In this document: piece after piece, positions 16,540 to 37,694 of the stretch
Layout: the number at the start of each line of letters is the position of its first letter
Position numbering within the stretch: the first letter of the stretch is position 1
NCBI RefSeq assembly: GCF_001294455.1
Contig: NZ_LIKT01000002.1
Location: forward strand, 1-64,000
Length of the DNA: 64,000 nt
Origin: Phaeobacter sp. 11ANDIMAR09
GTDB lineage: Bacteria > Pseudomonadota > Alphaproteobacteria > Rhodobacterales > Rhodobacteraceae
Reading direction: 5' to 3'
The notes under the pieces: generated by a model
The model's input: the letters and a program-made list of their open reading frames with translations, nothing else
Told to the model about the DNA's origin: nothing
Databases searched by the model: none
Made by a program: the position numbers and the translations under genes

Positions 16540-16540
16540 A

Positions 16541-19124: not shown

Positions 19125-19139
19125 GCGATCAGGCCCGGA

Positions 19140-20463: not shown

Positions 20464-21714
20464 ATGGCCTATTCCGGACTGAGAATCATCAAGGAAGCCC
20501 TGAGCGGGCATAGGGGCTGGAAGCCAGCCTGGCGCGATCCAGAGCCTAAGGCGCACTATGATATTGTTATCGTTGGTGGCGGCGGACATGGGCTGGCAAC
20601 GGCCTATTACCTGGCCTCGCGCTATCAGACAGCTCGGGTGGCGGTGCTGGAAAAAGGCTGGATCGGCGGCGGCAATGTGGGGCGCAACACCACCATCGTG
20701 CGCTCCAACTATCTGCTGGATGGCAACCAGGCCTTCTACAATCTTAGCCTGCGCATGTGGGAGGATCTGGAACAGGATCTGAACTACAACGCCATGGTCT
20801 CGCAACGCGGCATTCTGAACCTGGTGCACACGGATGCGCAACGTGATGCGGCGCGGCGGCGCGGCAATGCGATGATCCTGGCCGGGGATGACGCCGAACT
20901 GCTCGATACAGATGGGGTGCGTGCGCTTTATCCCTTCCTCAACTTTGAAAACGCCCGTTTCCCGATCAAGGGCGGCCTGCTGCACCGTCGCGGCGGCACC
21001 GTGCGCCATGATGCGGTGGCCTGGGGCTATGCGCGCGGCGCTGACCGGCGCGGTGTCGATATCATTCAGAACTGCGAAGTCACCGGCTTTAAGGTTGAAA
21101 ATGGCACATGCCTGGGGGTGGAAACCACCCGCGGTTTTATCGGCGCGGGTAAGGTCGGCGTTGCCGTTGCCGGTTCTTCCAGTCGGGTGATGCAGATGGC
21201 CGGGCTGCGCCTGCCAATCGAAAGCCACGTGTTGCAGGCCTTTGTCTCCGAAGGGCTGAAGCCTGTCATTCCCGGTGTCATCACCTATGGCGCCGGGCAT
21301 TTCTATTGCAGTCAGTCGGACAAGGGCGGGCTGGTCTTTGGCGGCGATATTGACATGTACAACACCTACGCCCAGCGCGGCAATCTGCCAGTGGTCGAGG
21401 ACGTGCTGGAAAGCGGCATCTCTCTGATCCCGGCGTTGGGCCGGGTGCGCCTGCTGCGCAGCTGGGGCGGCATCATGGATATGTCGATGGATGGCTCTCC
21501 CTTTATCGACCGCACCCCCATCGACGGCCTCTATTTCAATGGCGGCTGGTGCTACGGCGGCTTTAAGGCAACGCCGGCTTCGGGCCTGTGTTTTGCCCAT
21601 CTGATGGCAACGGATACCCCGCATGAGGTGGCGCAGGCCTATCGTCTGGATCGGTTCCGCAGCGGCCACATGATCGATGAAAAGGGCCAGGGCGCCCAGC
21701 CCAACCTGCATTGA
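20464..21714 (+). CDS. soxB: Sarcosine oxidase beta subunit
   Basis: 416 residues from ATG 20464; the open frame extends upstream but without family similarity. DIVIVGGGGHGLATAYYLAS near residue 37 is the FAD-binding Rossmann motif. GGTVRHDAVAWGYARGADRR contains His182, which lines up with the histidine that covalently holds FMN in heterotetrameric sarcosine oxidase. NGGWCYGGFKATPASG is the C-terminal flavin contact. It catalyses oxidative demethylation of sarcosine or a related N-methyl amino acid. First gene of soxBDAG, divergent from the BMP gene. Confidence 0.9.
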   Translation: MAYSGLRIIKEALSGHRGWKPAWRDPEPKAHYDIVIVGGGGHGLATAYYLASRYQTARVAVLEKGWIGGGNVGRNTTIVRSNYLLDGNQAFYNLSLRMWEDLEQDLNYNAMVSQRGILNLVHTDAQRDAARRRGNAMILAGDDAELLDTDGVRALYPFLNFENARFPIKGGLLHRRGGTVRHDAVAWGYARGADRRGVDIIQNCEVTGFKVENGTCLGVETTRGFIGAGKVGVAVAGSSSRVMQMAGLRLPIESHVLQAFVSEGLKPVIPGVITYGAGHFYCSQSDKGGLVFGGDIDMYNTYAQRGNLPVVEDVLESGISLIPALGRVRLLRSWGGIMDMSMDGSPFIDRTPIDGLYFNGGWCYGGFKATPASGLCFAHLMATDTPHEVAQAYRLDRFRSGHMIDEKGQGAQPNLH

Positions 21715-21737
21715 CCCGCAAAGAAGGATTTTGAGCG

Positions 21738-22025
21738 ATGATGATCGACCATCCCCTGTTGGGTCTGCGTGACGCACAGGAATTCACCTATCTCGGCGAT
21801 GCCAGCCTGATCGACCGCCCCGACTGGCAGGCCGAGGACGCCCAAGACGCGTTTCACGACTACCTCTATCTGCGCGACAACCCGGCAGGTGCGCACCGCG
21901 AATTGTGGTTCCACGAGACTGGGGATCGCTCCTGGCTGGTGGTGACCCGCAATACTCTGACCCATGAGATCACTAAGGTGGAACTGGCCCGTGATGTGGC
22001 CCGAGCGCGAGGGCGCAGCAAATGA
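21738..22025 (+). CDS. soxD: Sarcosine oxidase delta subunit, zinc cysteines missing
   Basis: 95 residues. RDNPAGAHRELWFHETGDRS and NTLTHEITKVE follow the SoxD family. The normal N-terminal CPxCG knuckle is replaced by HPLLG (residues 5-9), and of the His59/Cys63 pair only His59 remains (Asp63 instead of Cys). The protein has no cysteine at all. The zinc site known in characterised delta subunits is therefore probably absent. It keeps the family position between beta and alpha, and its stop overlaps soxA (ATGA). Confidence 0.85.
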   Translation: MMIDHPLLGLRDAQEFTYLGDASLIDRPDWQAEDAQDAFHDYLYLRDNPAGAHRELWFHETGDRSWLVVTRNTLTHEITKVELARDVARARGRSK

Positions 22026-24979
22026 ACCAGGTTAACCGACTGACTGGCGGCCAGATCAACCGCGCCAAGGAACTTAACTTCCGCTTTGATGGCCGCAGCT
22101 TCAAGGGGTTTGAGGGCGATACGCTTGCCTCGGCTCTGCTGGCCAATGGTGAGCGCCTGATGGGGCGCTCCTTCAAATATCACCGCCCGCGCGGCGTGCT
22201 GACGGCAGGATCAGAAGAGCCCAACGCGCTGGTCGAGCTGCGTCAGGGCAACCGGCAAGAGCCCAACACCCGCGCTACCGTGGCCGAGCTGTTCGAGGGG
22301 CTGGAGGCCAAGGCTCAAAACGCCTGGCCCTCGCTGCGGTTTGACGCCATGGCGGTGAACGACCGCATCAGCAATTTCCTGACAGCGGGGTTCTATTACA
22401 AGACCTTCATGTGGCCAAAACCCTTCTGGGAAAAGGTCTATGAGCCGATCATCCGCAAGGCTGCTGGTCTGGGCTCAATCTCTTTCGAGGACGATCCGGA
22501 TCTCTACGACAAAGGTTTCCTGCACTGCGATCTGCTGATTATTGGCGCTGGCCCTACAGGTTTGGCAGCCGCATTGACCGCCGGTCGTTGTGGTGCACGC
22601 GTGATCCTTGCGGATGAAGATTTCCGCATGGGTGGACGCCTCAACGCTGAGACCTTGGCGCTGGGCGATGCATCCGGTTCTGACTGGGCGGCCGAGGCCA
22701 TAGCGGAACTGGCCAGCCTCGACAACGTGCGTCTGATGACCCGCACAACTGTCATCGGGGCCTTTGATCATGGGATCTACGGCGCGGTTGAGCGCGTGCA
22801 GGATCACCTGCCGCAGGCCCAGGCCGACAAGCCACGCCAGATCCTCTGGCGGATCTATTCGCGTAGGGCGATGCTTTGTGCAGGTGCAATGGAACGCCCG
22901 ATTGCCTTTGCCGACAACGATCGCCCGGGGGTGATGTTGGCCTCGGCAGTACGGTCCTATGTGAACCGTTGGGCTGCCGCGCCGGCGCAGGAGATTGTGA
23001 TTTTCACCAATAATGACGATGGCCATCGTACCGCTGCGGATCTGATTGCCAAGGGCGTCAAAGTGCCCGCTGTCATCGATGTGCGCGCGGATGCGCCTGC
23101 GGTTGCCGGGGCCGAGCTGCTCGCTGGGGCCGAGGTCATCGGCACAGAGGGGCGTCTGGGACTCACATCCGTCACCGTGCGCCTCGCCAATGGTCAGACC
23201 CGCAAGATCAAATGCGGTTCCCTGGCCGTGTCTGGTGGCTGGAATCCCAATGTGCATCTGACCTGCCATCAGCGTGGACGCCCGCATTGGAATGCCGAGC
23301 TCGCGGCTTTTGTGCCCGGACCCGAGCTGCCAAGCGGTATGACGGTTGCAGGCGCCGCCAATGGTCAGCTCTCCACCGCGCAGGCCCTTGCGGGCGGCGC
23401 CAGCGGAGCCGTTGCTGCACTCGGGGACTTGGGGACCACAGCCAAAGCCATTGATCTGCCACAGACCGAGGATGCGCCGATTGCACTGAAGCCTTTCTGG
23501 CATGTGCAGGGTGGCAAGTCGCGCGCCTGGGTCGATCTGCAGAACGATGTCACCGTCAAGGACGTGAAGCTGGCGCATCAAGAAAACTTTGTCTCCGTCG
23601 AGCACCTGAAACGCTATACCACCCTGGGCATGGCCACCGATCAGGGCAAGACCTCCAATATGCTGGGGCTTGCGGTGATGGCCGAGCTCACCGGCAAATC
23701 TATCCCGGAAACCGGCACCACCATTTTCCGTCCGCCCTACACACCTGTGCCCATGGGCACCATGGCGGGACGCGCCACTGGCAAACACTTTCACCCGACC
23801 CGCAAAACGCCTTCGCACCACTGGGCCGAGGAACAGGGCGCGGTCTTTACCGAAGTGGGCGACTGGCTGCGGGCGCAGTGGTTCCCCCGACAGGGAGAGA
23901 CTCATTGGCGCCAGTCGGTGGATCGCGAAGTGCTGCAGACCCGCAAATCTGTGGGTGTCTGCGATGTGACCACCCTGGGCAAGATCGACGTGCAGGGCAA
24001 AGATGCCGCGACCTTCCTGAATAAGGTCTATGCCAATGCCTTTGCCAAATTGCCGGTGGGCAAGGTGCGCTATGGCCTGATGCTGCGCGAAGATGGCATT
24101 GCCTATGACGATGGCACCGCCGCGCGTCTGGCTGAGGATCATTTTGTCGTCACCACCACCACCGCCAATGCGGTGCTGGCCTATCGCAATATGGAATTCG
24201 CCCGTCAGTGTCTCTGGCCGGATCTGGATGTGCAGCTGATCTCCACCACCGAGGCCTGGGCGCAATATGCCGTGGCCGGCCCCAATGCCCGAAAGCTGTT
24301 GAAAAAAATCGTTGACGCGGATGTGGACATCTCCAACGAGGGCTTCCCCTTCATGGCCTGCGGTGAAATCACCCTCTGTGGCGGATTGCGAGCGCGTCTG
24401 TTCCGCATCTCTTTCTCGGGTGAGCTGGCCTATGAGGTCGCGGTGCCTACGCGTTATGGCGATGCCCTTGTGCGCGCCCTAATGGAGGCGGGAGAGGAAT
24501 TTGATGTCACCCCCTATGGCACCGAAGCGCTGGGCGTAATGCGGATTGAGAAAGGCCATGCCGCCGGCAATGAACTAAACGGCACCACCACGGCGCTGAA
24601 CCTAGGGTTGGGGCGGATGGTCAGCAAGAAAAAAGACTGCATCGGCAATACCTTAAGCGAACGCAAAGGTCTAAGCGACGCGGCAGGATTGCGACTGGTG
24701 GGCTTTAGACCTGTCAAGGCGCAGGATCCGGTGACAGCCGGGGCGCATTTGATGCGTGCCAGCGGCGAAATCAGCGCCGACACGGATCAAGGCTATATCA
24801 CCTCTGCCTGTTTCTCACCCAACTTGGGTTGTTCGATTGGCATCGGCTTCCTGAAAGACGGCGCCAATCGCATGGGCGAAAAGCTCCGCGCGGCGAACCC
24901 GCTAGAGGGCAGCACTGTCGAGGTCGAAGTGGTCTCGGCGCATTTCATTGACCCAGAAGGGGAGCGTCTTCGTGCTTAA
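22022..24979 (+). CDS. soxA: Sarcosine oxidase alpha subunit
   Basis: 985 residues. Order: N-terminal ferredoxin-like part (RFDGRSFKGFEGDTLASALL, RGVLTAGSEEPNALVEL), FAD/NAD domain (CDLLIIGAGPTGLAAALTAG near residue 165), an amine-channel linker, and a C-terminal GcvT-like tetrahydrofolate domain (KSVGVCDVTTLGKIDVQG, then PYGTEALGVMRIEKGH). The folate domain captures the methyl carbon as methylene-tetrahydrofolate. Length and domain order match the family. The end overlaps soxG. Confidence 0.92.
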   Translation: MNQVNRLTGGQINRAKELNFRFDGRSFKGFEGDTLASALLANGERLMGRSFKYHRPRGVLTAGSEEPNALVELRQGNRQEPNTRATVAELFEGLEAKAQNAWPSLRFDAMAVNDRISNFLTAGFYYKTFMWPKPFWEKVYEPIIRKAAGLGSISFEDDPDLYDKGFLHCDLLIIGAGPTGLAAALTAGRCGARVILADEDFRMGGRLNAETLALGDASGSDWAAEAIAELASLDNVRLMTRTTVIGAFDHGIYGAVERVQDHLPQAQADKPRQILWRIYSRRAMLCAGAMERPIAFADNDRPGVMLASAVRSYVNRWAAAPAQEIVIFTNNDDGHRTAADLIAKGVKVPAVIDVRADAPAVAGAELLAGAEVIGTEGRLGLTSVTVRLANGQTRKIKCGSLAVSGGWNPNVHLTCHQRGRPHWNAELAAFVPGPELPSGMTVAGAANGQLSTAQALAGGASGAVAALGDLGTTAKAIDLPQTEDAPIALKPFWHVQGGKSRAWVDLQNDVTVKDVKLAHQENFVSVEHLKRYTTLGMATDQGKTSNMLGLAVMAELTGKSIPETGTTIFRPPYTPVPMGTMAGRATGKHFHPTRKTPSHHWAEEQGAVFTEVGDWLRAQWFPRQGETHWRQSVDREVLQTRKSVGVCDVTTLGKIDVQGKDAATFLNKVYANAFAKLPVGKVRYGLMLREDGIAYDDGTAARLAEDHFVVTTTTANAVLAYRNMEFARQCLWPDLDVQLISTTEAWAQYAVAGPNARKLLKKIVDADVDISNEGFPFMACGEITLCGGLRARLFRISFSGELAYEVAVPTRYGDALVRALMEAGEEFDVTPYGTEALGVMRIEKGHAAGNELNGTTTALNLGLGRMVSKKKDCIGNTLSERKGLSDAAGLRLVGFRPVKAQDPVTAGAHLMRASGEISADTDQGYITSACFSPNLGCSIGIGFLKDGANRMGEKLRAANPLEGSTVEVEVVSAHFIDPEGERLRA

Positions 24980-25538
24980 TCTCAAACCCATCACCGCCCT
25001 TGGCGCAGAGGTCCCTCAGGTGGACAGCTTCGACGGGTTGGAGATCGCCGAACGCGCCGATTTTGCCCTCGCCAGCCTCGCGGCCCGGCAGGGCGAAGAG
25101 GTGCTCTGCGCGACCAAGGCACAAGCCTATCTGGGCTTTGCTTTGCCACAACCAGGACAGGGCAGCCTGGCCGCGCCGTTCTCGGCCTTTTGGATGGGGC
25201 CGGATCAGTGGATGATTGCGGCACCACACGACAGACATGAGGATCTTGCCAGCCACTTGAAACAGGCGCTTGGCGAGAGCGCCTCGGTCAGTGAACAGAC
25301 GGATGGCTGGTGCCGTTTCGACCTCTCGGGCGCGGGCCTTCAGGCGGTGTTGGAACGGCTCTGCAATGCGGATCTGGCCAGCATGGCTGCCGGAGAGGCC
25401 CGCCGCGTGCGGCTGGAGCATCTGGGCTGCTTCATCTGGTGCCTGGAGCCCAGCCAATCGGTTGCGATCCTTGGTCCGCGCTCTTCGGCGGCCTCATTGC
25501 ATCATGCGCTGGTTGGGGCGGCAAAATCGGCACTGTGA
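24972..25538 (+). CDS. soxG: Sarcosine oxidase gamma subunit
   Basis: 188 residues from GTG 24972, which overlaps the soxA stop and has GGGGAG at 7-base spacing; an in-frame start at 24948 lacks this support. The fold is GcvT-like, with FWMGPDQWMIAAPHDRHEDL, DGWCRFDLSGAGLQAVLERL and HLGCFIWCLEPSQSVAILGP as SoxG features. Gamma is a structural, flavin-free subunit of the heterotetramer. Last gene of the operon; a convergent regulator pair follows. Confidence 0.85.
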   Translation: MLNLKPITALGAEVPQVDSFDGLEIAERADFALASLAARQGEEVLCATKAQAYLGFALPQPGQGSLAAPFSAFWMGPDQWMIAAPHDRHEDLASHLKQALGESASVSEQTDGWCRFDLSGAGLQAVLERLCNADLASMAAGEARRVRLEHLGCFIWCLEPSQSVAILGPRSSAASLHHALVGAAKSAL

Positions 25539-25553
25539 ACCGAAGTTCGGGAC

Positions 25554-26582
25554 CTACATCGACGGCAGTACGCTGTCGTCGGTGATCCTTAGCGAGGTCT
25601 TGGCTTGACGTTCCTTTTGCGGACTGGTGCCAAAGATTTCGCGGTAATGGCGCTGAAAGGCTGCAGGGGAACTATAGCCGACCATATAGGCAATGCTGGT
25701 CACGGCATCCTGACCATAGAGCACCAGCTGCCGGGCCTCTTTCATGCGCATTTGCCTATAGTATTTCAGTGGGCTTTGCCCGGTGGCGCGTTTGAAACTG
25801 CGCTCCAGACTGCGCGACGACATATGGATGGCCTCGGCCACGGCGCTGATCTGGATCGGGGTTTCAATGTTCTGAGCAAAGATTTCGATCGCTTGGGCCA
25901 CCTTGGCGGGCAGCATGTCGTTGCTGACAGCATTGCCGAGGGCCGGAAGTTTCTGCTGAACCGAGGCACCACGCACAAAGGGATGCTGGAACCAGCAGGC
26001 GGTTTCCGTGGTGATGGCAGCACCAAGACGGGCCTCGATATGGTTGAGCATCAGGTCGAACACGGCGGCCGCCCCCGAGGCAGTCTGGCAGCTGCCTTCA
26101 TCGCTCATCACGGTTTGCAGGATTTCAATCTGTGGGAATTCTGCCTGAAACGCCGCCTCGTAGCACCAATGCACCGACATCGGCTGATCTGCCATCAAGC
26201 CGCTGCGGGCCAAGGGGAAGATACCGCCGCTAAAGGCGCCGACCTTGCCGCCTCGGCGCAGGTGTCGTTGCAGGGCGGCATTGGCCTTGCCAGGATCATT
26301 GAAATTGCCATCGGGACTGGCGACAAAAAACAGATGGTCCAGGTCATTGGCCTCGGACAGACGCAAATCCGGGGCAAAACTGACCCCAGCAGAGGAGGCA
26401 ATGGGCCCGTCTGTTTCGGCGAGGATTTGCCAGCAAAAGGCCTGTTCCCCCGAGATTTCATTGGCGGCGCGTAGCGGTTCGATCGCCGAAGTGAGACAGG
26501 CCATGGGAAAGCCGGGAAAGATCAGAAAGCCCAGGGTAATAGGCTTATGGGGTGCGCGCGGCGGGGGAGAGACGTCGTTCAT
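25554..26582 (-). CDS. GlxA-type AraC regulator (GbdR/CdhR/SouR-like)
   Basis: 342 residues. An N-terminal DJ-1/PfpI-like sensor (TLGFLIFPGFPMACLTSAIE through GGIFPLARSGL and SDEGSCQTASGAAAVFDLML) is followed by an AraC DNA-binding domain (about 230-325) with ISAVAEAIHMSSRSLERSFK and VTSIAYMVGYSSPAAFQRHY. Regulators of this build control glycine betaine (GbdR), carnitine (CdhR) and sarcosine (SouR) use. It faces the sox operon tail-to-tail and overlaps the LysR gene by 4 bases, so both are one transcript. Likely activator of the surrounding catabolic genes. Confidence 0.88.
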   Translation of the reverse strand: MNDVSPPPRAPHKPITLGFLIFPGFPMACLTSAIEPLRAANEISGEQAFCWQILAETDGPIASSAGVSFAPDLRLSEANDLDHLFFVASPDGNFNDPGKANAALQRHLRRGGKVGAFSGGIFPLARSGLMADQPMSVHWCYEAAFQAEFPQIEILQTVMSDEGSCQTASGAAAVFDLMLNHIEARLGAAITTETACWFQHPFVRGASVQQKLPALGNAVSNDMLPAKVAQAIEIFAQNIETPIQISAVAEAIHMSSRSLERSFKRATGQSPLKYYRQMRMKEARQLVLYGQDAVTSIAYMVGYSSPAAFQRHYREIFGTSPQKERQAKTSLRITDDSVLPSM

Positions 26583-27505
26583 CTAGGCCTCCTGTGTCCG
26601 ACGGGGTGCTGTGACGGGATTGGGGGCTGCATCGCAGTGACAGTTCTGATGATCTGACGCTCCAATTCGCGCGCGGCCGGCGACACCGGATTTCCTGCTT
26701 TGCGCAGTAGGTGGATTTGGCGCCGCGCGCTGGCATCAACCAGCGGGCAGAACACAAGCCCAGATGATTCGGCCAGTTTTGCGGTCATTTCAGGTAGAAT
26801 CGTAACCCCAAGTTCCGCCTGAACCATGGCCAAAAGCGACGTCATATTGTGCACTTTGAGTAGGGAGTTTTCGTGTAACCGTTGCGAGGCCTCCGTCGGG
26901 ATCTGTGCAGAAAGCGCATTGGCGATGAAGCGATGCGGAGCCAGATCCTTCCAGTTGATCGGTCGATCCAGAGCCGCCAGGGGATGAGACGCTGCGCACA
27001 CCAGGCCAAAGGCATCCGAAAGCAATTCCTGACGATGCAGACTGCCCCCGGACAGCGTGGCAGTAGCCAGCCCTATATCGACCCTTTCGCGGGCCAATTC
27101 CCGCAGAACCGAGGCCGAGTCCATATCGCGCAGCTCGATCTTCACTTCGGGGAAGTCTCTGGAATAGCTCAGGATTGCCTGCGGCAGAATCGTCCCGGCG
27201 ACCGAGGGCACAGCCGCGATGCGCACCTGACCCTGACGCGCCTTGGCAAAACCTTCTATCGCCTGAATGGTGTTGTCGAACTGGCGCAGCTCATGCTCGG
27301 CCTGTTCCAGGACAAATTCCCCCAGGGCACTCAACTTATTCTTGCGGTCAGTCTCGAACAGAGGCTCTCCCAGATGACCTTCCAATTGTTTGAGCATCAT
27401 TGAAACGGCTGAAGGCGTGCGCCCCAGCTGCTCGGCCGCTTCGCTTAGTTTGCCGCGTCGGGCCACGATGGCAAAGCAGCGGAGCATTTCAATCTTAATA
27501 GACAT
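26579..27505 (-). CDS. LysR-family regulator
   Basis: 308 residues from ATG 27505 (AGGAAA upstream). The HTH at about 1-60 contains KLSEAAEQLGRTPSAVSMML, and the substrate-binding domain starts near QVRIAAVPSVAGTILPQAIL. It is divergent from the aldehyde dehydrogenase gene with a TGAGTT-N6-AACTCA palindrome between them, and is followed by the overlapping GlxA-type regulator. Confidence 0.88.
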   Translation of the reverse strand: MSIKIEMLRCFAIVARRGKLSEAAEQLGRTPSAVSMMLKQLEGHLGEPLFETDRKNKLSALGEFVLEQAEHELRQFDNTIQAIEGFAKARQGQVRIAAVPSVAGTILPQAILSYSRDFPEVKIELRDMDSASVLRELARERVDIGLATATLSGGSLHRQELLSDAFGLVCAASHPLAALDRPINWKDLAPHRFIANALSAQIPTEASQRLHENSLLKVHNMTSLLAMVQAELGVTILPEMTAKLAESSGLVFCPLVDASARRQIHLLRKAGNPVSPAARELERQIIRTVTAMQPPIPSQHPVGHRRPR

Positions 27506-27536
27506 TTCAGTTTTCCTGAAATTAACTTCACTAGTT

Positions 27537-27554
27537 TGAGTTTGAATGAACTCA
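27537..27554. promoter_or_regulatory. Candidate LysR operator (TGAGTT-N6-AACTCA)
   Basis: An 18-bp palindrome lies between the divergent LysR and aldehyde dehydrogenase genes. It contains a T-N11-A core (27542 and 27554), the generic LysR box. Function inferred. Confidence 0.4.
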
Positions 27555-27614
27555 TGCTCGGAGTCCATAAGCAGTGAACGCAATTGCATGCTGACTGATA
27601 CGGGGACCTATCTC

Positions 27615-29066
27615 ATGAGCGAACTTCACAAAAACCTGATTGCTGGCGAATGGCTGGCTGGCGAAAGCGAGATCGAGAACCGCAACCCTTCGGATCTGTC
27701 GGATCTGGTTGGCGTCTATGCACAGGCAACGGCGGACCAGCTGGAAGCCACTTTGGATCAGGCCCGCGTGGCACAGGCCGAATGGGCTGCCTATGGTCTG
27801 GAGCGCAAACAGGCTGTGTTGAACGCCATCGGCAATGAAATGATGGCCCGCGCCGAAGAGCTGGGCACATTGCTGTCGCGCGAAGAGGGCAAGCCGCTGG
27901 CCGAAGGCAAAGGCGAAGTCTACCGCGCTGGTCAGTTCTTTACCTATTACGCGGCTGAATGCCTGCGTCAGCTGGGCGAGAATGCAGATTCCGTTCGGGA
28001 CGGCGTTGAAATCGATGTGCGCCGCGAGCCTATTGGCACTGTGGCCATCATCAGCCCCTGGAACTTCCCCACCGCGACGGCGTCGTGGAAAATCGCCCCG
28101 GCTCTGTGCTATGGCAACGCGGTTGTTTGGAAACCTGCCAATGTGACCCCTGCTTCGGCTGTGGCTCTGGCGGAAATCATCGAGCGTCAGGACATTCCCA
28201 AAGGTTTGTTCTCCTTGGTGATGGGCGCCGGTCGCACCATTGGTCAGCGTCTTGTCGAAAGCCCCAAGATCGACGCAATTTCCTTCACCGGTTCCGTTCC
28301 AGTTGGCAAAGGCATTGCCACCGCTGCAATCCAGAACCTGACCAAGGTTCAAATGGAAATGGGCTCCAAGAACGCCCTGGCGGTGATGGATGACGCTGAT
28401 CTCGATCTGGCTGTGACCCTTGCCCTGGGTGGCGCTTTTGGCGGCACTGGTCAGAAATGTACTGCCTCATCGCGTCTGGTTGTGCATGCATCGGTGCATG
28501 ATGCCTTTGTTGAAAAGCTGGTTGCTGGCACCCAGGCGATGAAGGTCGGCCACGCGCTGGAAGCCGGCGTACAGATGGGCCCCGTGGTCAGCGAGCAGCA
28601 GCTGAGCGAGAACCTGTCCTATGTGGATTTGGGCAAATCCGAAGGCGCGGAACTGGCCTGTGGTGGCGCCCGCCTGGAGATGCCCACCGAGGGCTTCTAT
28701 ATGTCCCCCGGCGTGTTCCTCAACACCTCCAATGATATGGCGATCAACCGGGAAGAAATGTTTGCGCCGTTGACCTCTGTGATCAAGGTTGGCAGCTATG
28801 AGGAAGCCCTGAGCGTGGTGAATGACACCAACTTTGGCCTGACCTCTGGCATCGTCACCCAGAGCCTGGCGCGCGCCACCCATTTCCGTCGCAATGCGCG
28901 CACGGGTGTTGTTACCGTTAACCTGCCCACCGCAGGCACTGACTATCACGTACCCTTTGGTGGCCGTGGCGACAGCTCTTATGGTCCACGTGAACAGGGT
29001 AAGAACGCGGCCGAATTCTACACCACAGTCAAAACCGCCTATATCAGCGCCGGAAAGCCTGTCTGA
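27615..29066 (+). CDS. Aldehyde dehydrogenase, ketoglutarate-semialdehyde type
   Basis: 483 residues. NAD(P)-binding SPWNFPTATASWKIAPAL, FTGSVPVGKGIA, general base Glu248 in MEMGSKNALAVMDDADLD and nucleophile Cys282 in GQKCTASSRL. The EMGSKN and DDADLD pattern resembles 2,5-dioxovalerate (alpha-ketoglutarate semialdehyde) dehydrogenases, which close hydroxyproline and pentose pathways. ATG 27615 is chosen by the family N-terminus (MSELHKNLIAGEW); starts at 27546 or 27588 would add a tail. It is first of a run with the dipeptidase-like, BCCT and three further genes. Exact aldehyde unknown. Confidence 0.8.
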   Translation: MSELHKNLIAGEWLAGESEIENRNPSDLSDLVGVYAQATADQLEATLDQARVAQAEWAAYGLERKQAVLNAIGNEMMARAEELGTLLSREEGKPLAEGKGEVYRAGQFFTYYAAECLRQLGENADSVRDGVEIDVRREPIGTVAIISPWNFPTATASWKIAPALCYGNAVVWKPANVTPASAVALAEIIERQDIPKGLFSLVMGAGRTIGQRLVESPKIDAISFTGSVPVGKGIATAAIQNLTKVQMEMGSKNALAVMDDADLDLAVTLALGGAFGGTGQKCTASSRLVVHASVHDAFVEKLVAGTQAMKVGHALEAGVQMGPVVSEQQLSENLSYVDLGKSEGAELACGGARLEMPTEGFYMSPGVFLNTSNDMAINREEMFAPLTSVIKVGSYEEALSVVNDTNFGLTSGIVTQSLARATHFRRNARTGVVTVNLPTAGTDYHVPFGGRGDSSYGPREQGKNAAEFYTTVKTAYISAGKPV

Positions 29067-30046
29067 TGCTGATCGACTGTCTGCAATATGCCAACTGGTC
29101 GGAAAAGATTTTCCGCCAGCTGCGAGAAGGGGGCGTGGATGCGATCCACGTCACCATCGCCTATCACGAGAATTTTCGCGAAACGGTGCTGAACTTCGAG
29201 CAGTGGAACCGCTGGTTTGAGCAGTACCCGGATCTGATTATGAAGGGGCAGTGGGCCTCTGATATCGATGTGGCCCGCGCAACGGGCCGCACCGCAGTGT
29301 TCTTTGGGTTCCAGAACCCCAGCCCGATGGAAGATGACATTGGTCTGGTGGAAATCCTGCACACGCTGGGTGCTCGTTTCATGCAGCTCACCTACAACAA
29401 CCAGTCGTTGCTGGCGACCGGCTGTTATGAATCCTACGACAGCGGTATCACCCGCATGGGCAAACAGGTCATCAAAGAGATGAACCGGGTTGGTCTGGTG
29501 GTCGATATGAGCCATTCCGGCGATCGCTCCACCATCGAGGCGGCGGATATCTCTGAGCGCCCCATCGCGATCACCCATGCCAACCCCTATGACTGGTCGC
29601 CAGCGCTGCGTAACAAGAAGGATGATGTCATCCGCGCCGTGACTGAAGCTGGCGGCATGCTGGGCTTTTCGGTCTATCCGCATCACCTCAAAGGCAAGGG
29701 CGACTGCACGCTCGAGAGCTTTTGCCAGATGATCGCCGATACGGCTGGGAAATATGGTGCCGAGCACCTCGGGATTGGCACCGATCTGTGTCAGGACCAA
29801 CCCGACAGCATCGTGGAATGGATGCGCGTTGGACGTTGGAGCAAGGAAATCGACTATGGCGAAGGCTCTGCCGCCGCCCCCGGTTTCCCGGAGATGCCCA
29901 GCTGGTTCAAGGACAACCGTGACTTTGGCAACATCAAAGCGGGTCTCAAGGCCACCGGTCTCAGCGATGCGGAGGTCGCCGGGATCATGGGCGGCAATTG
30001 GTACCGCTTCTTCAAGGAAAATTTCGTCGCAGCTGCGGATCAGTAG
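29066..30046 (+). CDS. Membrane dipeptidase (renal dipeptidase) family protein, atypical metal site
   Basis: 326 residues. The TIM-barrel family is recognisable from ARFMQLTYNN, VVDMSHSGDRSTIEAAD, ITHANPYDW and LGIGTDLCQD, which give the equivalents of two zinc histidines and the barrel aspartate. The usual N-terminal DGHxD is missing (LIDCLQYANWSEK). So one of the two metals is probably not bound the classical way. A family member sits beside dimethylglycine demethylation genes in Pseudomonas, which fits this osmolyte context. Start overlaps the aldehyde dehydrogenase stop (TGATG). True dipeptidase activity is doubtful. Confidence 0.8.
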   Translation: MLIDCLQYANWSEKIFRQLREGGVDAIHVTIAYHENFRETVLNFEQWNRWFEQYPDLIMKGQWASDIDVARATGRTAVFFGFQNPSPMEDDIGLVEILHTLGARFMQLTYNNQSLLATGCYESYDSGITRMGKQVIKEMNRVGLVVDMSHSGDRSTIEAADISERPIAITHANPYDWSPALRNKKDDVIRAVTEAGGMLGFSVYPHHLKGKGDCTLESFCQMIADTAGKYGAEHLGIGTDLCQDQPDSIVEWMRVGRWSKEIDYGEGSAAAPGFPEMPSWFKDNRDFGNIKAGLKATGLSDAEVAGIMGGNWYRFFKENFVAAADQ

Positions 30047-30099
30047 CTGCAAATGTGAGTGACGGGAACGCGCGACCCGTTTCCCGGGGAGGGAAAACT

Positions 30100-31644
30100 A
30101 TGTCTGATACAACTAACGAAACCAAGGGGCAGGAAGGGGCTGTCAACAAGCCGCTTTTCCTGATCTCGGGGGGCTTTATTGCCCTGTTCTGCGTGGCCGC
30201 GCTGGTCAACCTGGATGGGCTTTCGGCCATGGTGGACTGGGGCTTTAACTTTGCCGCCACCTATTTTGGCCTCTATTGGCAGGTGCTGCTGCTGGCCACC
30301 TTCTTGATTGGTCTGGTGCTCTGCGTTCTGCCCGGTGGCCGCGCCATCATGGGTGGCTTGGCCGCGCCTGAATTCACCCTGTTCCAGTGGGGCTCGATGA
30401 TCATGTGTACCCTGCTTGCAGGTGGCGGCGTGTTCTGGGCGGCGGGTGAGCCGATTGCCCACTTCCTCTATTCGCCACCGCTTTATGGTGCCGAGGGTGG
30501 GACCGAGGCAGCTGTGAATCCGGCGATTGCCCAAAGCTTCATGCACTGGGGCTTCCTGGCCTGGGCCATCCTGGGCTCGCTCAGCACCGTTATGCTGATG
30601 CATTACCACTATGAAAAAGGCCTGCCACTGGCGCCACGTACCCTGCTGTACCCGGTGTTTGGCGACAAGGCGATCAACGGCCCCATCGGCTTGATTGCCG
30701 ATGCCTCTTCGATCATCGCTGTGGTTGCCGGCACCGTGGGACCCATCGGCTTCCTCGGTTTGCAGGTGAGCTATGGTCTCAACGATCTGTTTGGCATTCC
30801 CGATGTCTTTGTCACGCAGTTGCTGGTGATTGCTGGTCTGGCTGCGCTCTACACGATTTCGGCAATGACAGGTCTGTCCAAAGGCATTCAGCTGTTGTCC
30901 AAGGTCAACGTGATCCTGGCCGCTGCCCTGCTGCTCTTCGTGCTGCTTGCTGGCCCAACCGGCTTTATCTTCAGCGCCTTCTTTGAGGGTTTTGCCACCT
31001 ATCTGGGCAACTTCTTCCAGATGGCGCTGTTCCGCGGTGATGCAGGTGTGTTTGGCGAGCCCGGCTGGCTGGGCTGGTGGACCGTGTTCTTCTGGGGCTG
31101 GTTCATGGGCTATGGTCCGCTGATGGCGATGTTCATCGCCCGCGTGTCCCGCGGCCGCTCGATCCGCTCTATCATCATCATGCTGTCGATCATTGCCCCC
31201 ATCGTGACCAACTTCTGGTTCACCATCATCGGCGGTACCGGCATCTCGATGGAACTGACCGAACCCGGCACCATCTCCAAAGCATTCGAGGGCTTCAACC
31301 TGCCCGCAGCGCTGCTGGCGATCACCAACAACCTGCCCATGGGCTTTATCATCTCCATCCTGTTCCTGATCCTGACCACCATCTTTGTGGCCACCACAGG
31401 GGATTCGATGAGCTACGTGATTTCCGCTACCATGAGCGAAGGTGACAATCCTCCGACAGCCGTACGTGTCTTCTGGGGAATTGCAATGGGCGTCATGGCG
31501 GTGATCCTGATCTCGGTCGGTTCCGGCGGTGTCTCCAAGCTGCAAAGCTTCATCGTGGTGACCGCAGTGCCTGTTTCGCTGATCCTGCTGCCCTCGCTTT
31601 GGGATGCCCTGCGTATTACCCTGGCAAAAGGCAAGGAAGGCTGA
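30100..31644 (+). CDS. BCCT-family zwitterion transporter
   Basis: 514 residues, twelve predicted membrane segments. The BCCT signature at about 325-358 reads WTVFFWGWFMGYGPLMAMF followed by IARVSRGRSIR. Compared with the WAWWxxW box of betaine carriers, two tryptophans are Phe and Tyr, so the bound cation may differ from glycine betaine. GGGGAGGG precedes ATG 30100. The long C-terminal osmosensing tail of BetP is absent, in line with a catabolic carrier and not an osmoregulated one. Sits between the dipeptidase-like gene and an unrecognised gene. Confidence 0.9.
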   Translation: MSDTTNETKGQEGAVNKPLFLISGGFIALFCVAALVNLDGLSAMVDWGFNFAATYFGLYWQVLLLATFLIGLVLCVLPGGRAIMGGLAAPEFTLFQWGSMIMCTLLAGGGVFWAAGEPIAHFLYSPPLYGAEGGTEAAVNPAIAQSFMHWGFLAWAILGSLSTVMLMHYHYEKGLPLAPRTLLYPVFGDKAINGPIGLIADASSIIAVVAGTVGPIGFLGLQVSYGLNDLFGIPDVFVTQLLVIAGLAALYTISAMTGLSKGIQLLSKVNVILAAALLLFVLLAGPTGFIFSAFFEGFATYLGNFFQMALFRGDAGVFGEPGWLGWWTVFFWGWFMGYGPLMAMFIARVSRGRSIRSIIIMLSIIAPIVTNFWFTIIGGTGISMELTEPGTISKAFEGFNLPAALLAITNNLPMGFIISILFLILTTIFVATTGDSMSYVISATMSEGDNPPTAVRVFWGIAMGVMAVILISVGSGGVSKLQSFIVVTAVPVSLILLPSLWDALRITLAKGKEG

Positions 31645-31750
31645 AGCCAGACTTGAAAACTCCGGGTGGGCACTAACTGGTGCCCATCCGTTGCCTGCAT
31701 CGGCAGGAAATGGAAACGCGCGAACACCCAGATTGTAAAGGCTCTCTAGT

Positions 31751-33448
31751 ATGACCGAAGTCTCTTGCCGCGACCCCAATTTGGTGATGCGCCTTGCCCG
31801 CCTTGGTTCCATCCACCAATCGCGCCTGTCCTTTATGCGCATCCTGACCCGCCGTATGGCGCGCGAGGGATGGCGTTTTGAACAGACCGCTTTTGAGATC
31901 AACGACCAAGGTGTTGGTCATGCGGTTTACACTGCCCATGGTCCGGAACGCGCCTATTCTCTGATCGCCTATGCTCATGACCTGCCCGCCGAAAAGCGCT
32001 CGGATCGGGTGATTGCCGAAGCCTGGGATGCGACGTTTACCCTGTTTGATGGCATTCCCACAGGCGCCGATATCGAACGTTTGTCGCAGAACATCCCGGT
32101 ACAGGAAGCTGGCCGCGTCAAAGGCACTGAGCTTTCGGTCTCGCGGGCCAACCGCTCGGTGCGCCTCTGGGAACATGTTGTCAGCAAGCTGGCCGCAGGC
32201 GAGCAACCCGATGCGGCTCAAATTGATGCCGTCGGCTATCTGATGCGCACCACCGCCGTCTATGGCTCGGGCAAACTGGGGGCAGCAGATCGCGAGATGA
32301 TCGCAGACCGCCCCGAATTCCGCGTGCCGTTCCAGGTCGAGATGCTTTCGGTCTATCTGACCCGCTGGTTCGTGCGTGATTTGGTGCAATATATGGCAGA
32401 TACCCGCGCTAAGGCACTGGGGGCCAGTGCAGCCAAGCTGGACCCCGATCTGGCGCGCAGCATGGGCATTGGCAATTCCACCGGCCTCGGCATGGCGCCG
32501 TTCCTGTTGAATCACCCGGTGCTGTTCAGCAACTGGGTCCAGGTTCGTGAAACCGCGCTGCAGCGTGTGCGCGGGGTTGCCTCAGCCACCGCCGATGAGA
32601 TCGCTGTTTTCAACGATATCTTTGCCCGTAACAAACAATCGGTCGCCAACTGGCATTCCGAACACCCGGTTCAGCTGGAGAAGCTGGCGGCCCTACAGGC
32701 TGACGTTGATCTGATCAGCGCCAAACTGGAAGATGAAGGCCTGGCGCAGAGCTCCCCCTGGGAGAGCCTCTATCAGTGGAGCACGCAGTCGCTGACTGTT
32801 GAGGGTCAGGAATGGCTGGTCTCCCTGATGCTGGAGCCCTATGGCGATCTGGTGGATGATCTGGCGGATGAAATGTCGGCGGATAACACCGCCACTTTCC
32901 GTATTGCCGGCGCCATGACCGTCGCCCGTCTGCGTGAAGTCTTGCAGGATGTTTACGGCTGGGCGCTCAAGACCGATTGGAGCCTTGCGGCCAACAAGGC
33001 CCGCGCCTGGTACGTCTCTGAAGAAAAGCTGGAGCCGCGTCTGGGTGAACGCTTTGAAGAGCCCATCGAGGAATATGAGCAGCCCTTGGCGCCGGGGCGC
33101 GATGCCACCCAGCTCTTTGCCGCCTTGGCCCATTGGCCGGAGGAGACCCCCGTCGCCGAATTCCTGCTGCGCCACCCCGAGCACCGCCATTCGGTGCGCC
33201 GGGCTCAGATTGCCAATCGCGCCCCCTATGCCGAGATCCGTGACAACACGATCTCCGAGGATGTGCTGCCAATCGATATGCTGCGCTGCAAGTTGGCATT
33301 CTTTGGGGCGATGCATTTCGACCCCCGTTCGGACCGCTGGGTCCGCATCTGCATGTATGGAAACGCGCCCTATCCAGAAGAGCTGTCGACGCGTGACGGT
33401 GATTTCTGGGTCTATCCAGATGCCCAGTCAGTTGCGAAGGAGGGCTAA
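31751..33448 (+). CDS. Unrecognised conserved-looking 565-residue soluble protein
   Basis: I do not recognise this family. It is acidic, without signal peptide or membrane segments, and begins VMRLARLGSIHQSRLSFMRI. Striking parts are TAVYGSGKLGAADRE, GMAPFLLNHPVLFSNWVQVR and SEDVLPIDMLRCKLAFFGAM. The strong coding bias, the ATG at 31751 and the 4-base gap to the DUF3726-like gene argue for a real gene co-transcribed from the BCCT side or from the 106-bp gap before it. Its place between a zwitterion carrier and an Ldh2-type reductase suggests an enzyme or accessory factor of the same pathway. Confidence 0.8.
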   Translation: MTEVSCRDPNLVMRLARLGSIHQSRLSFMRILTRRMAREGWRFEQTAFEINDQGVGHAVYTAHGPERAYSLIAYAHDLPAEKRSDRVIAEAWDATFTLFDGIPTGADIERLSQNIPVQEAGRVKGTELSVSRANRSVRLWEHVVSKLAAGEQPDAAQIDAVGYLMRTTAVYGSGKLGAADREMIADRPEFRVPFQVEMLSVYLTRWFVRDLVQYMADTRAKALGASAAKLDPDLARSMGIGNSTGLGMAPFLLNHPVLFSNWVQVRETALQRVRGVASATADEIAVFNDIFARNKQSVANWHSEHPVQLEKLAALQADVDLISAKLEDEGLAQSSPWESLYQWSTQSLTVEGQEWLVSLMLEPYGDLVDDLADEMSADNTATFRIAGAMTVARLREVLQDVYGWALKTDWSLAANKARAWYVSEEKLEPRLGERFEEPIEEYEQPLAPGRDATQLFAALAHWPEETPVAEFLLRHPEHRHSVRRAQIANRAPYAEIRDNTISEDVLPIDMLRCKLAFFGAMHFDPRSDRWVRICMYGNAPYPEELSTRDGDFWVYPDAQSVAKEG

Positions 33449-33452
33449 AGTG

Positions 33453-34100
33453 ATGAGCCATTCATTGAACGAAATCGAAGCCATGAGCAAACGCGCCGCC
33501 CGCGGCGCTGGTCTGGCCTGGGGCCTTGCTGAAGAGGCCGCCAAGGGTACGCGCTGGCTCTCGGCCTTCAGCTTTCCCGGCACCGAAATGCTGGCCGGAC
33601 TTCTTGCCTTGAATGATCGCCTGCCTGCGGTGGATTTTTCCCCCGCGACTCTGACTGGTCGATGGTCGGCCCCTGCTGGCCGCATGAGCCCGCTGATTGC
33701 TGGTGCCGCGATGAGCGACTGCGCCATCCGCATGGAGGCTGGCCAGGTGATCGAGATGGAAAACGTCTCATTTCCGTTGCTGGTGGTGCCGTTTGCGGGC
33801 GGTGCAGCGCTGCGCCTTGGCGTACCCGTCTCCGTCTCCTGGGAAGGCGTCAAGCTCACCACCGACGGTCAGCGTCTCTGTGTGCAGGGGGCGCGTGATG
33901 CCATTCTCACCATGCATGCAACTCAGCTCAGCTGTGCGGCCCCGGCGGCGATGACCGGCCAGAGCGAGCCAGTCATGCGCGCTGATGTGGATGAAGCAGC
34001 CTGGGCCAAGCTGGGTGAATTTGCCCATCGCACCTATGCGCCTGCCACTGAAAGCTCTCGCCTGCTGGGGGCCGGTTCTGGTCTTAGCGACAACGACTGA
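33453..34100 (+). CDS. DUF3726-like protein
   Basis: 215 residues from ATG 33453 (AAGGAGG upstream; a GTG three bases earlier is possible). SLNEIEAMSKRAARGAGLAW with GLAEEAAKGTRWL is the part I associate with DUF3726. No signal peptide, no membrane segment. Function unknown. It follows the 565-residue protein by 4 bases and precedes the Ldh2-type gene by 60 bases. Confidence 0.7.
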   Translation: MSHSLNEIEAMSKRAARGAGLAWGLAEEAAKGTRWLSAFSFPGTEMLAGLLALNDRLPAVDFSPATLTGRWSAPAGRMSPLIAGAAMSDCAIRMEAGQVIEMENVSFPLLVVPFAGGAALRLGVPVSVSWEGVKLTTDGQRLCVQGARDAILTMHATQLSCAAPAAMTGQSEPVMRADVDEAAWAKLGEFAHRTYAPATESSRLLGAGSGLSDND

Positions 34101-34160
34101 TGCGAAAGGGGGCGCGTCCTGCGCCCTGGTTCCAAAACTGAAAGAAGAGGAAACCTCCGG

Positions 34161-35168
34161 ATGACTGCCACCGAAACTCTGAGCCTGAGTGACATCGAAA
34201 CCCTCGCCTATGACGCCCTGGTGGCGGCGGGCACCTCGCCTGAAAACTCCCGGCCTCTGGCGGTGGCAACCGCCATGACCGAAGCCGATGGCGTTGCCTC
34301 GCACGGGCTCGCCTATGTGCCGATCTACGCGGGCCATGTGGACTGTGGCAAGGTGGATGGCAAGGCAGAGCCGGTGCTGAGCCAGCCGCGCCCCGGCGTG
34401 GTGGCCGTGGATGCCGCCACCGGTTTTGCTCATGCTGCCATCGACAAGGGGTTTGAGACCCTGATCCCGCTGGCGCTTGAACAGGGCGTTGCGGTTCTGG
34501 CGGTGAAGAACTCCTATAACTGCGGCGTGTTGGGGGTGCATACTCAGCGTCTGGCGCAGGCGGGTCTCTTGGGCTTTGGTTTCACCAATGCCCCAGCCTC
34601 CATCGCGCCTTCGGGCGGGGCCAAGCCCGTTCTGGGCACCAACCCGATCTCCATCGCTGCACCCGGTGTCGATGGCGAAGCCCTGGTGCTGATTGACCAA
34701 TCCGCCAGCACCATTGCCAAAAGCGAAGTGATGAAGCACTCCCGCGAAGGCAAAGCGGTGCCGGAAGGCTGGGTGTTGGACGTGGATGGCAACCCCACCA
34801 CCGATCCGGATGCTGGCCTCAAAGGCTCGATGGTGCCTTCGGGTGGCTACAAGGGCGTTGGCATTGCGCTGATGGTCGAAATGATGGCGGCAGCCATGAC
34901 CGGGGCCTCCCTCGGGACTGAGGCCAGTCCCTTTTCGGGTCCTGTGGGTGGTCCACCCAAGACGGGTCAATTCTTTATCGCGATTGATCCCGGCGCCACT
35001 TCTGCTGGCAGCTTTGCTGAGCGTATCTCGACACTGGTGGCTTCGATCCGCGATCAGGATGGCGGGCGTCTGCCCGGCGATGGCCGTGCCAAGGCCCGCG
35101 CTCGCGCTGCAACCGAAGGCGTCGCTGTGAACTGCGCAACCTTGGAAAAGGTGCGCGCGCTTCTGTAA
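34161..35168 (+). CDS. Ldh2/MDH2-family NAD(P)H-dependent oxidoreductase
   Basis: 335 residues. Family motifs are ADGVASHGLAYVPIY (catalytic SHG), PVLGTNPISIAAP, VLIDQSAS and PSGGYKGVGIALMVE. The usual NSxHFG segment is NSYNCG here. The family covers malate, sulfolactate and ureidoglycolate dehydrogenases and the delta1-piperideine/pyrroline-2-carboxylate reductases. The latter would suit a pathway for cyclic N-methyl amino acids. Last gene before a strong terminator at 35212-35252. Confidence 0.85.
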   Translation: MTATETLSLSDIETLAYDALVAAGTSPENSRPLAVATAMTEADGVASHGLAYVPIYAGHVDCGKVDGKAEPVLSQPRPGVVAVDAATGFAHAAIDKGFETLIPLALEQGVAVLAVKNSYNCGVLGVHTQRLAQAGLLGFGFTNAPASIAPSGGAKPVLGTNPISIAAPGVDGEALVLIDQSASTIAKSEVMKHSREGKAVPEGWVLDVDGNPTTDPDAGLKGSMVPSGGYKGVGIALMVEMMAAAMTGASLGTEASPFSGPVGGPPKTGQFFIAIDPGATSAGSFAERISTLVASIRDQDGGRLPGDGRAKARARAATEGVAVNCATLEKVRALL

Positions 35169-35393: not shown

Positions 35394-35433
35394 CTGAGAT
35401 CAGGCCCGTTTTTCTGAGATCAGGCCCGTTTTT
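35394..35433. repeat. Exact 20-bp tandem duplication
   Basis: CTGAGATCAGGCCCGTTTTT occurs twice back to back (35394-35413 and 35414-35433). The first copy holds the stop codon of the minus-strand gene at 35400-35972, so the duplication defines that protein's C-terminus. Confidence 0.85.
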
Positions 35434-35972
35434 GCCGCTCCGTATCCTGTCCGAGGGTCAAGAATATGGCTTGATCCCTTGCCACCCAGGGTTCCTGCCG
35501 CTGCCGATGTCGCCAGGGCGCGATCGGACAGGGAAACTTTTGCACGTAGCTCTCCCTCTGGGGCGGCTACGCTAACATGCCAGGCAGTGCCATCTGGGCG
35601 CTGGCCCAGAACTGCGCCGGAGTTGCGGCCCCCGGGCATGGGCGCAGGATGGGCGAGTCGTTTGTAGCACGCACTGACCAACGTGAAGGAGGCAACCTGG
35701 GTGGATCTTGTTTGCCCGTTTTCAGCAAGGCAGATCAGGCAACTGTCGCAGCCAGGGCACTCCCGGTCTTGACTGTTCTGATCCTCAAGCGGGATCTGCA
35801 CTTCAACGGCGCCAAACTCGCTGCAGATTTCGATCCACCGGCCTGAGCCTGCCGCCTTGCCCAGGCTCGGAAACAGCATTTGAAGCACCAGCATCACCAC
35901 AAAGCCACAGCCTGCAAGGCGGCGGAACAGTCCGCCGCTGAACAGGAAGATATGCTGGAAATTAAGAGCCAT
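35400..35972 (-). CDS. Small Cys-rich secreted or membrane-anchored protein (DUF2946-like)
   Basis: 190 residues from ATG 35972, starting MALNFQHIFLFSGG. A hydrophobic segment (about 10-35) acts as signal or anchor. Then comes CPGCDSCLICLAENG near residue 75, a cysteine group seen in DUF2946-type proteins near metal or copper genes. The ribosome site is weak and the C-terminal tail ends inside a 20-bp tandem duplication, so the tail may be altered. An upstream in-frame start at 36065 is less likely. No function assigned. Confidence 0.5.
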   Translation of the reverse strand: MALNFQHIFLFSGGLFRRLAGCGFVVMLVLQMLFPSLGKAAGSGRWIEICSEFGAVEVQIPLEDQNSQDRECPGCDSCLICLAENGQTRSTQVASFTLVSACYKRLAHPAPMPGGRNSGAVLGQRPDGTAWHVSVAAPEGELRAKVSLSDRALATSAAAGTLGGKGSSHILDPRTGYGAAKTGLISEKRA

Positions 35973-36343
35973 TGGTCGCCAGGGTGGTTGCGAGAACTTT
36001 GTTGACCCGAGCTGGCCGTGGATTTGGCAAGTTTGTACTGTAACAAAGGACATTGCGGTTGGCACATTTTTGGTGTGATATTCGTGTTGTGGAATTTATC
36101 GGAATTTTCCCCGCCCTGAGCCCCACAAAGGCAGCGTTTACAAAATGTTACGCGGATTTGGGGCTAAATCGGCCTGTGTTGATGAAACTTCTCGCCACGC
36201 GGTCACGATCCATGCGGGCAAATCAGGTGGATTCTGTCCCAATAATAGTGAGACTGCTGGCGACGGAATGTCCGTGGAAAAACGTTTATGTTTTCTGGCT
36301 CTGCATTGGACCCACGATTGCCCCTGACACAAAGGTAGCCCCC

Positions 36344-37693: not shown

Positions 37694-37694
37694 T

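Follow-up and report, generated by a model that had tools for sequence, protein, structure and literature searches.

A conserved catabolic operon beside N-methylglutamate dehydrogenase-type genes in Phaeobacter sp. 11ANDIMAR09, a probable homarine utilisation cluster

We have analysed a block of genes at positions 20464-35168 of a 64,000-nucleotide stretch of Phaeobacter sp. 11ANDIMAR09 (contig NZ_LIKT01000002.1, positions 1 to 64,000; hereafter the window), and propose that it is probably a cluster for the utilisation of homarine (N-methylpicolinate). The block is made up of two units, an operon of N-methylglutamate dehydrogenase (Mgd)-type genes with an AraC regulator, and a core operon that diverges from a LysR regulator. 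The core operon is conserved, and the first unit, which is annotated as sox-type, is a facultative neighbour. It most likely represents, in this genome, a pathway that has recently been published. A sequence-only reading of the same DNA had named the genes concerned, and all of them were located inside the block: sox-type B, D, A and G genes, a GlxA-type AraC regulator, a LysR regulator, an aldehyde dehydrogenase (ALDH), an M19 'dipeptidase'-family protein, a BCCT carrier, a protein of 565 residues (P565), a DUF3726 protein and an Ldh2-family reductase.

Conservation of the core operon, a catabolic one, extends across the family and beyond it, to Rhizobiaceae and to other classes of the phylum. 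In the window, the LysR gene (26579-27487, minus strand; PF03466 and PF00126) is separated from the remaining genes, all on the plus strand, by an intergenic region (27488-27614) that is presumed from its position alone to hold a divergent promoter. There follow the ALDH gene (27615-29066), an M19-family amidohydrolase with an altered metal site (29066-30046), the BCCT carrier (30100-31644; PF02028), P565 (31751-33448), the DUF3726 protein (33453-34100; PF12525) and the Ldh2-family protein (34161-35168; PF02615), a proposed N-methylimino-acid reductase. For P565, the proposed core catalytic protein, neither a Pfam family nor a matching solved structure was found, and the DUF3726 protein is its proposed partner. 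Start positions of soxB (20464), soxD (21738), LysR (27487), ALDH (27615) and BCCT (30100) were refined from homologue lengths and upstream sequence.

P565 or a relative of it was found in 114 of the 248 genomes sampled from the window's family, at 31-77% identity with the window's own copy set aside, a count that takes in looser relatives of 31-50% identity. It occurs in 8/12 genomes of the genus and, by a profile search at E 1e-20, in 29/398 genomes of the phylum. A scan of named genomes returned at least 578 P565 relatives among 591 stretches; the best 80 were kept, and 77 of these 80 loci carried in the same stretch an M19 gene at least 60% identical to that of the window, a recurrence that goes beyond chance. 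ALDH and M19 genes stood beside P565 in 82 of 132 loci. Genes in the order LysR, ALDH, M19, (BCCT), P565, DUF3726, (Ldh2) are also present in Ruegeria sp. TM1040, Phaeobacter inhibens, Sulfitobacter sp. W027, Shinella, Pararhizobium and Aminobacter, in a record that bears the label Roseateles, and in genomes of other classes of the phylum. The locus tags are TM1040_RS02315-RS02345 for Ruegeria sp. TM1040 and PGA1_RS18825-RS18850 for Phaeobacter inhibens. A BCCT or ProXW-type (betaine ATP-binding cassette, ABC) carrier lay within 5 kb in 48 of the 82 core loci. The sequence-only reading had seen here a co-conserved catabolic block for an N-methylated zwitterion, and this part of it stands as most likely, with BCCT or, in the Rhizobiales records, glycine-betaine-type ABC carriers for uptake. 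Co-conservation held for the core operon and only in part for the sox-type genes and the AraC gene: a soxB-type gene (at least 40% identity) was present within 12 kb in 10/132 P565 loci, which is a lower bound because many stretches end before 12 kb. All 10 are among the 74 loci that have ALDH and M19 genes and at least 6.5 kb of upstream and 2.5 kb of downstream flank.

P565 also has relatives in other settings. A looser paralogue (~40-48% identity), mostly with M19, adjoins truA, YcjX and class I tRNA-synthetase genes; these truA-side loci (L039, L051-L054, L057-L059 and L069) are without ALDH, carrier and Ldh2 genes, and L051 has a small DUF3726 protein. Relatives of 29-30% identity occur on rhizobial plasmids (L073, L077, L161 and L162), accompanied in L077 and L161 by a 240-residue protein, an M19 gene, an ABC carrier and RidA, to which L161 adds a transaminase and SSADH; in L162 the gene setting is different. 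Bins labelled Acidimicrobiales (L129, L137, L139, L140, L143 and L150) hold P565 proteins 57-60% identical to that of the window, which may reflect transfer or misbinned contigs.

Identity, tree and synteny assign the sox-type operon to the N-methylglutamate dehydrogenase type (mgdABCD), and its AraC neighbour is TmaR-like. The four subunits lie on the plus strand in the order B-D-A-G. An mgdA-type flavin adenine dinucleotide (FAD) subunit annotated in the soxB family (20464-21714; TIGR01373, 687 bits against a cut-off of 529) is followed by an mgdB-type small subunit of the soxD family (21738-22025), a 95-residue open reading frame between soxB and soxA; soxD is annotated at the equivalent place in Ruegeria sp. 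TM1040 and Phaeobacter inhibens. The mgdC-type large subunit of the soxA family (22022-24979; TIGR01372, 1344 bits against 1164) and an mgdD-type subunit of the soxG family (24948-25538; TIGR01375, 57.9 bits, under the cut-off of 144) complete the set. The GlxA/AraC regulator (25554-26582, minus strand) is convergent with this operon.

For comparison, only two gmaS-linked reference operons (genomes G010 and G002) were recognised, by synteny. The window soxB is 81% identical to the G010 copy, 13 kb from gmaS, and 77% identical to the G002 copy, 8 kb from gmaS. Its soxA is 74% identical to both, its soxG 41% and 49%, and its AraC regulator is 53% and 49% identical to those beside the mgd-type genes of G010 and G002, respectively. 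The G010 stretch reads gmaS, three Glu_synthase/GXGXG/GATase genes, a GCV_T gene, DmmA-like, HODM-like and AraC genes, and then the sox-type genes. In a soxB tree of 40 proteins, the window fell together with both gmaS-linked copies in a clade of 18 rows (support 99/98); the surrounding clade of 20 rows (90/85) contains 10 of the 11 P565-linked rows, L151 being placed elsewhere. The sequence-only reading had called these genes a sarcosine oxidase operon, and family models and the nearest solved structures do bear that name. A true sarcosine oxidase, beside the core by chance or through a shared role in glycine-betaine breakdown, would also suit the absence of a sox-type operon near most core loci and has in its favour that just two gmaS-linked copies could be compared; this alternative bears on the neighbour alone and leaves the reading of the core operon as it is. 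We consider it improbable in view of the 81% identity, an AraC gene placed convergently just as in the gmaS-linked operon, and the presence in this genome of two other soxB-type genes that score above the family cut-off and share 68% and 49% identity with that of the window, with no soxB-type match on the contig that bears its own gmaS (C11). The soxB tree and synteny also disfavour it; the genes themselves are there, and it is their type that is revised.

For Ruegeria pomeroyi, PMC13390433 places tmaR (SPO1584) between dmmDABC (SPO1579-1581) on its upstream side and mgdABCD (SPO1585-1588) on its downstream side. The window shares with this methylamine cluster (dmmDABC/tmaR/mgdABCD, with gmaS-mgs) an mgd-type operon and a convergent TmaR-like AraC gene; unlike it, the window pair is unlinked to gmaS and adjoins the P565 operon. 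A second TmaR-like AraC gene (L217, 8826-9824), 55% identical to that of the window, lies ~10 kb from the organism's own gmaS on C11, which carries no mgd-type operon. In seven further genomes of the genus or near it (G249, G250, G251, G252, G253, G075 and G086), 11-12 kb separate the mgd-type genes from P565, and in G076 the two lie on different contigs. In G075 and G076, which hold both the P565 operon and a gene of the mgd clade, gmaS was not matched at E 1e-100; these two genomes should therefore obtain N-methylglutamate in another way.

Among solved structures, the nearest relative of the window Ldh2 protein is delta1-piperideine-2-carboxylate reductase (1wtj; 200.7 bits against 138.8 for the next), and its NCBIfam matches were all under cut-off. 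This Ldh2-family enzyme, an imine reductase, is also called N-methyl-L-amino-acid dehydrogenase, or DpkA. In other P565 loci, genes of the RidA family (PF01042), a family of imine/enamine deaminases, lie near LysR. Across the 74 loci, which are related and to which some genomes contribute two, 40 had Ldh2 only, 16 had RidA only, 18 had neither and none had both (Fisher 3e-7, kinship of the loci ignored). On a P565 tree of 73 rows (L159 and L160 left out, the window added), RidA changes 9 times and Ldh2 10 times, at least 8 and at least 9 of these changes being forced by well-supported branches, and the sister pairs L094/L105 and L042/L125 differ in their Ldh2/RidA state; with 9-10 changes for each label, the exclusion does not go back to one ancient split. 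In other classes of the phylum, RidA lies between LysR and ALDH in L265, L266 and L272 and behind DUF3726 in L267, and no Ldh2 match was seen in the five ALDH-bearing P565 loci (L265, L266, L267, L268 and L272). The mutual exclusion suggests that both proteins would act on the same enamine or imine, an N-methylimine, which Ldh2 would reduce to an N-methylamino acid, N-methylglutamate as a substrate for Mgd, and RidA would hydrolyse to a keto acid and methylamine. The genomic evidence for such an imine branch point appears to be new.

P565 had no match in Pfam and a single NCBIfam match at E 0.04, and its PDB sequence search gave aristolochene synthase matches from E 0.025; both were taken as noise. 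When 18 diverse P565 proteins were compared with Pfam, nine families were returned, each for one member and with best E values of 0.02 to 0.35, also taken as noise. The AlphaFold2 model of P565 has a predicted local distance difference test score (pLDDT) of 90.3 and a predicted template modelling score of 0.92; searched at full length, it had its best Foldseek match at E 0.31, and none reached 0.001. The best hits of a fold search (VIA Z 4.2, START/PR-10-like and OCD-like chains) were not used. P565 may have a new fold.

The model of the DUF3726 protein (pLDDT 94.5) resembles Ldh2 and is ~120 residues shorter. It aligned with 15 listed Ldh2-family entries at Z 10.9-13.6 over 166-190 residues, the next row being at 4.2, and all four of its Foldseek matches at E 0.001 or better were Ldh2. 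The DUF3726 protein of L268 scores 41.4 bits with PF02615 (Ldh_2), over the gathering score of 38.8, and that of L267 scores 36.2; the hhalign comparison with the operon's own Ldh2 was weak. By its model, then, DUF3726 shares the Ldh2 fold, and a sequence kinship is detectable. The SHG motif, which we take to be catalytic, is invariant in the operon Ldh2 proteins (residues 47-49) and absent from both the window DUF3726 protein and the DUF3726 family consensus. Because it lacks this motif and is 120 residues shorter, DUF3726 may be a non-catalytic protein that descends from Ldh2 and serves as a partner to P565. A literature search on DUF3726 gave no match.

Of the 23 recurrent neighbour clusters drawn from 40 loci, 18 could be named (clusters 17 and 19-22, with three loci each, lie outside the annotated set), and no oxygenase recurs among them. 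P565 and DUF3726 are therefore proposed, by elimination only, for the opening step. More broadly, and as a tentative suggestion that we hold with some doubt, they may be the first known pair of an enzyme type that is new, in which a protein of so far unmatched fold and a degenerate Ldh2-fold partner would open N-heterocycles, N-methylated or other, or related amines, with no cofactor domain that can be recognised, in a module with the M19 hydrolase and an interchangeable Ldh2 or RidA for the imine.

If N-methylglutamate is the product, its precursor needs an N-methyl nitrogen on a carboxylate-bearing carbon and a five-carbon chain after the loss of one carbon. Homarine would fit if its ring were cut between C5 and C6, with C6 leaving as formate. 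In the pathway that we propose, LysR would control the operon and BCCT would import homarine; P565 and the Ldh2-like DUF3726 protein would open the N-methylpyridinium ring beside its nitrogen, and the product would be an N-formyl-N-methyl enamide that ends in a semialdehyde; ALDH would oxidise the semialdehyde and the M19 amidohydrolase would take off the formyl group. The remaining enamine/imine would be 2-methyliminoglutarate, to be reduced by Ldh2 to N-methylglutamate, which the adjoining mgdABCD would convert to glutamate and a folate-bound one-carbon unit. Where relatives lack Ldh2, hydrolysis of the imine by RidA would give 2-oxoglutarate and methylamine.

There is a precedent in trigonelline degradation (Tgn), where the pyridinium ring is opened next to the nitrogen to give an N-methyl-formamide with a semialdehyde, followed by an ALDH and amide hydrolysis. 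The same logic is proposed here; unlike the Tgn route, the window operon has no flavin oxygenase gene, and it has P565 without a Pfam family. A homarine operon reportedly named homABCDER comprises five genes and a regulator, as many as ALDH, M19, P565, DUF3726 and Ldh2 plus LysR. A homarine catabolic pathway of environmental bacteria was published in 2026 (Ferrer-Gonzalez et al., Nat Microbiol 11:1531), and PMC13390433, citing it, states that Mgd has been reported to take part in homarine catabolism. In the window an mgd-type operon lies next door. The earlier statement that no known pathway uses this gene set is thus doubtful, and the published one appears to fit better.

The same sequence of opening, semialdehyde oxidation, amide hydrolysis and imine reduction or hydrolysis might instead serve another N-methylated heterocycle or betaine, whose N-methyl product would go to demethylating enzymes, of the Mgd type or another. 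Neither the betaine-type carriers nor the exchange of Ldh2 for RidA points to one particular substrate, and the operon is paired with ProXWV-type carriers in Shinella, Pararhizobium, Aminobacter and the Roseateles-labelled record, joined by purU in the first and last of these and by folD in the last. We think this alternative rather unlikely, since the mgd-type neighbour and the ketoglutarate-semialdehyde-like ALDH suit the carbon skeleton of homarine and the published homarine pathway, as cited in PMC13390433, involves Mgd.

The substrates favoured by the sequence-only reading, namely proline betaine, hydroxyproline betaine or N-methylproline, which would undergo demethylation and then oxidation to ketoglutarate, were not supported. 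The ALDH is nearest to ketoglutarate-semialdehyde models, the solved relatives of Ldh2 are reductases of cyclic imino acids, and Phaeobacter inhibens has a Rieske-type oxygenase and a VanB-type reductase at a distance of 8-11 kb from P565; this route nevertheless appears very improbable, as the sox-type genes belong to the mgd clade and no demethylase, epimerase or hydroxyproline deaminase was found among the 18 nameable clusters, for which reason it was rejected. The Phaeobacter inhibens genes form part of a set that follows the operon on the same plasmid (L072, 15500-22983: FAD oxidoreductase, ALDH, Rieske-type oxygenase, LysR and VanB-type reductase), possibly a second betaine-demethylation set.

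Several observations weigh against the homarine pathway as we have drawn it. No direct tie of the window genes to homarine was seen. A strict genome-level link between mgd and Ldh2 was looked for and not found: with the mgd clade cut at 72% identity or more to the window soxB, such a gene was present in 6/11 genomes with Ldh2-bearing P565 loci and in 2/6 with the RidA type alone. The 18 loci with neither Ldh2 nor RidA, to which L268 may be added from another class, leave the imine step without either protein, and L144, outside the length filter, has RidA together with a 38% identical Ldh2-like gene. By the thresholds used, 34 of the 82 core loci had no carrier. P565, judged by the 18 diverse members compared with Pfam, matches no oxygenase or cofactor-binding family. 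In Sinorhizobium and Neorhizobium, the looser P565 relatives are accompanied by transaminase genes and by different ABC carriers, and the module is therefore not restricted to one substrate.

Features of ALDH and of the M19 protein also count against this pathway. The best NCBIfam model for ALDH is 2,5-dioxovalerate dehydrogenase, and the two curated models of ketoglutarate-semialdehyde type gave 477 and 475 bits, under their cut-offs of 750 and 770; its nearest solved relatives are betaine aldehyde dehydrogenases. The M19 protein belongs to Pfam M19 (PF01244, 236 bits against a cut-off of 26), with 2i5g as its nearest solved relative. M19 membrane dipeptidases have a binuclear metal site with an HxD motif and a bridging Glu. 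The window protein retains His150, His171 and Asp240 but is without HxD near its N-terminus, and its Gln83 aligns to the bridging Glu of GliJ, 2i5g having the same Gln; formyl hydrolysis is for this reason not assured.

On either side of the block lie genes of other kinds. Upstream, a divergent block (14321-20165) constitutes an uptake set, with an amidohydrolase, two BPD_transp_2 permeases, an ABC ATPase and a Bmp/PnrA-type binding protein. Downstream of the operon (35400-40799) are ApbE-like, HlyD and RND genes; near P565 elsewhere, just distant HlyD/RND relatives (23-28%) were seen, in L100 and L266.

Homarine is present in many marine animals. It is also a nitrogen-bearing osmolyte of diatoms, and R. 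pomeroyi draws down diatom homarine quickly, according to PMC12817926. P565 is widespread in the family, yet the 18 diverse members compared had no Pfam match beyond noise, and DUF3726 gains a fold and a likely origin. Knowing the genes for homarine breakdown would let its turnover be tracked in genomes, and the exchange between Ldh2 and RidA could show from sequence whether methylated nitrogen is kept as N-methylglutamate or released as methylamine.

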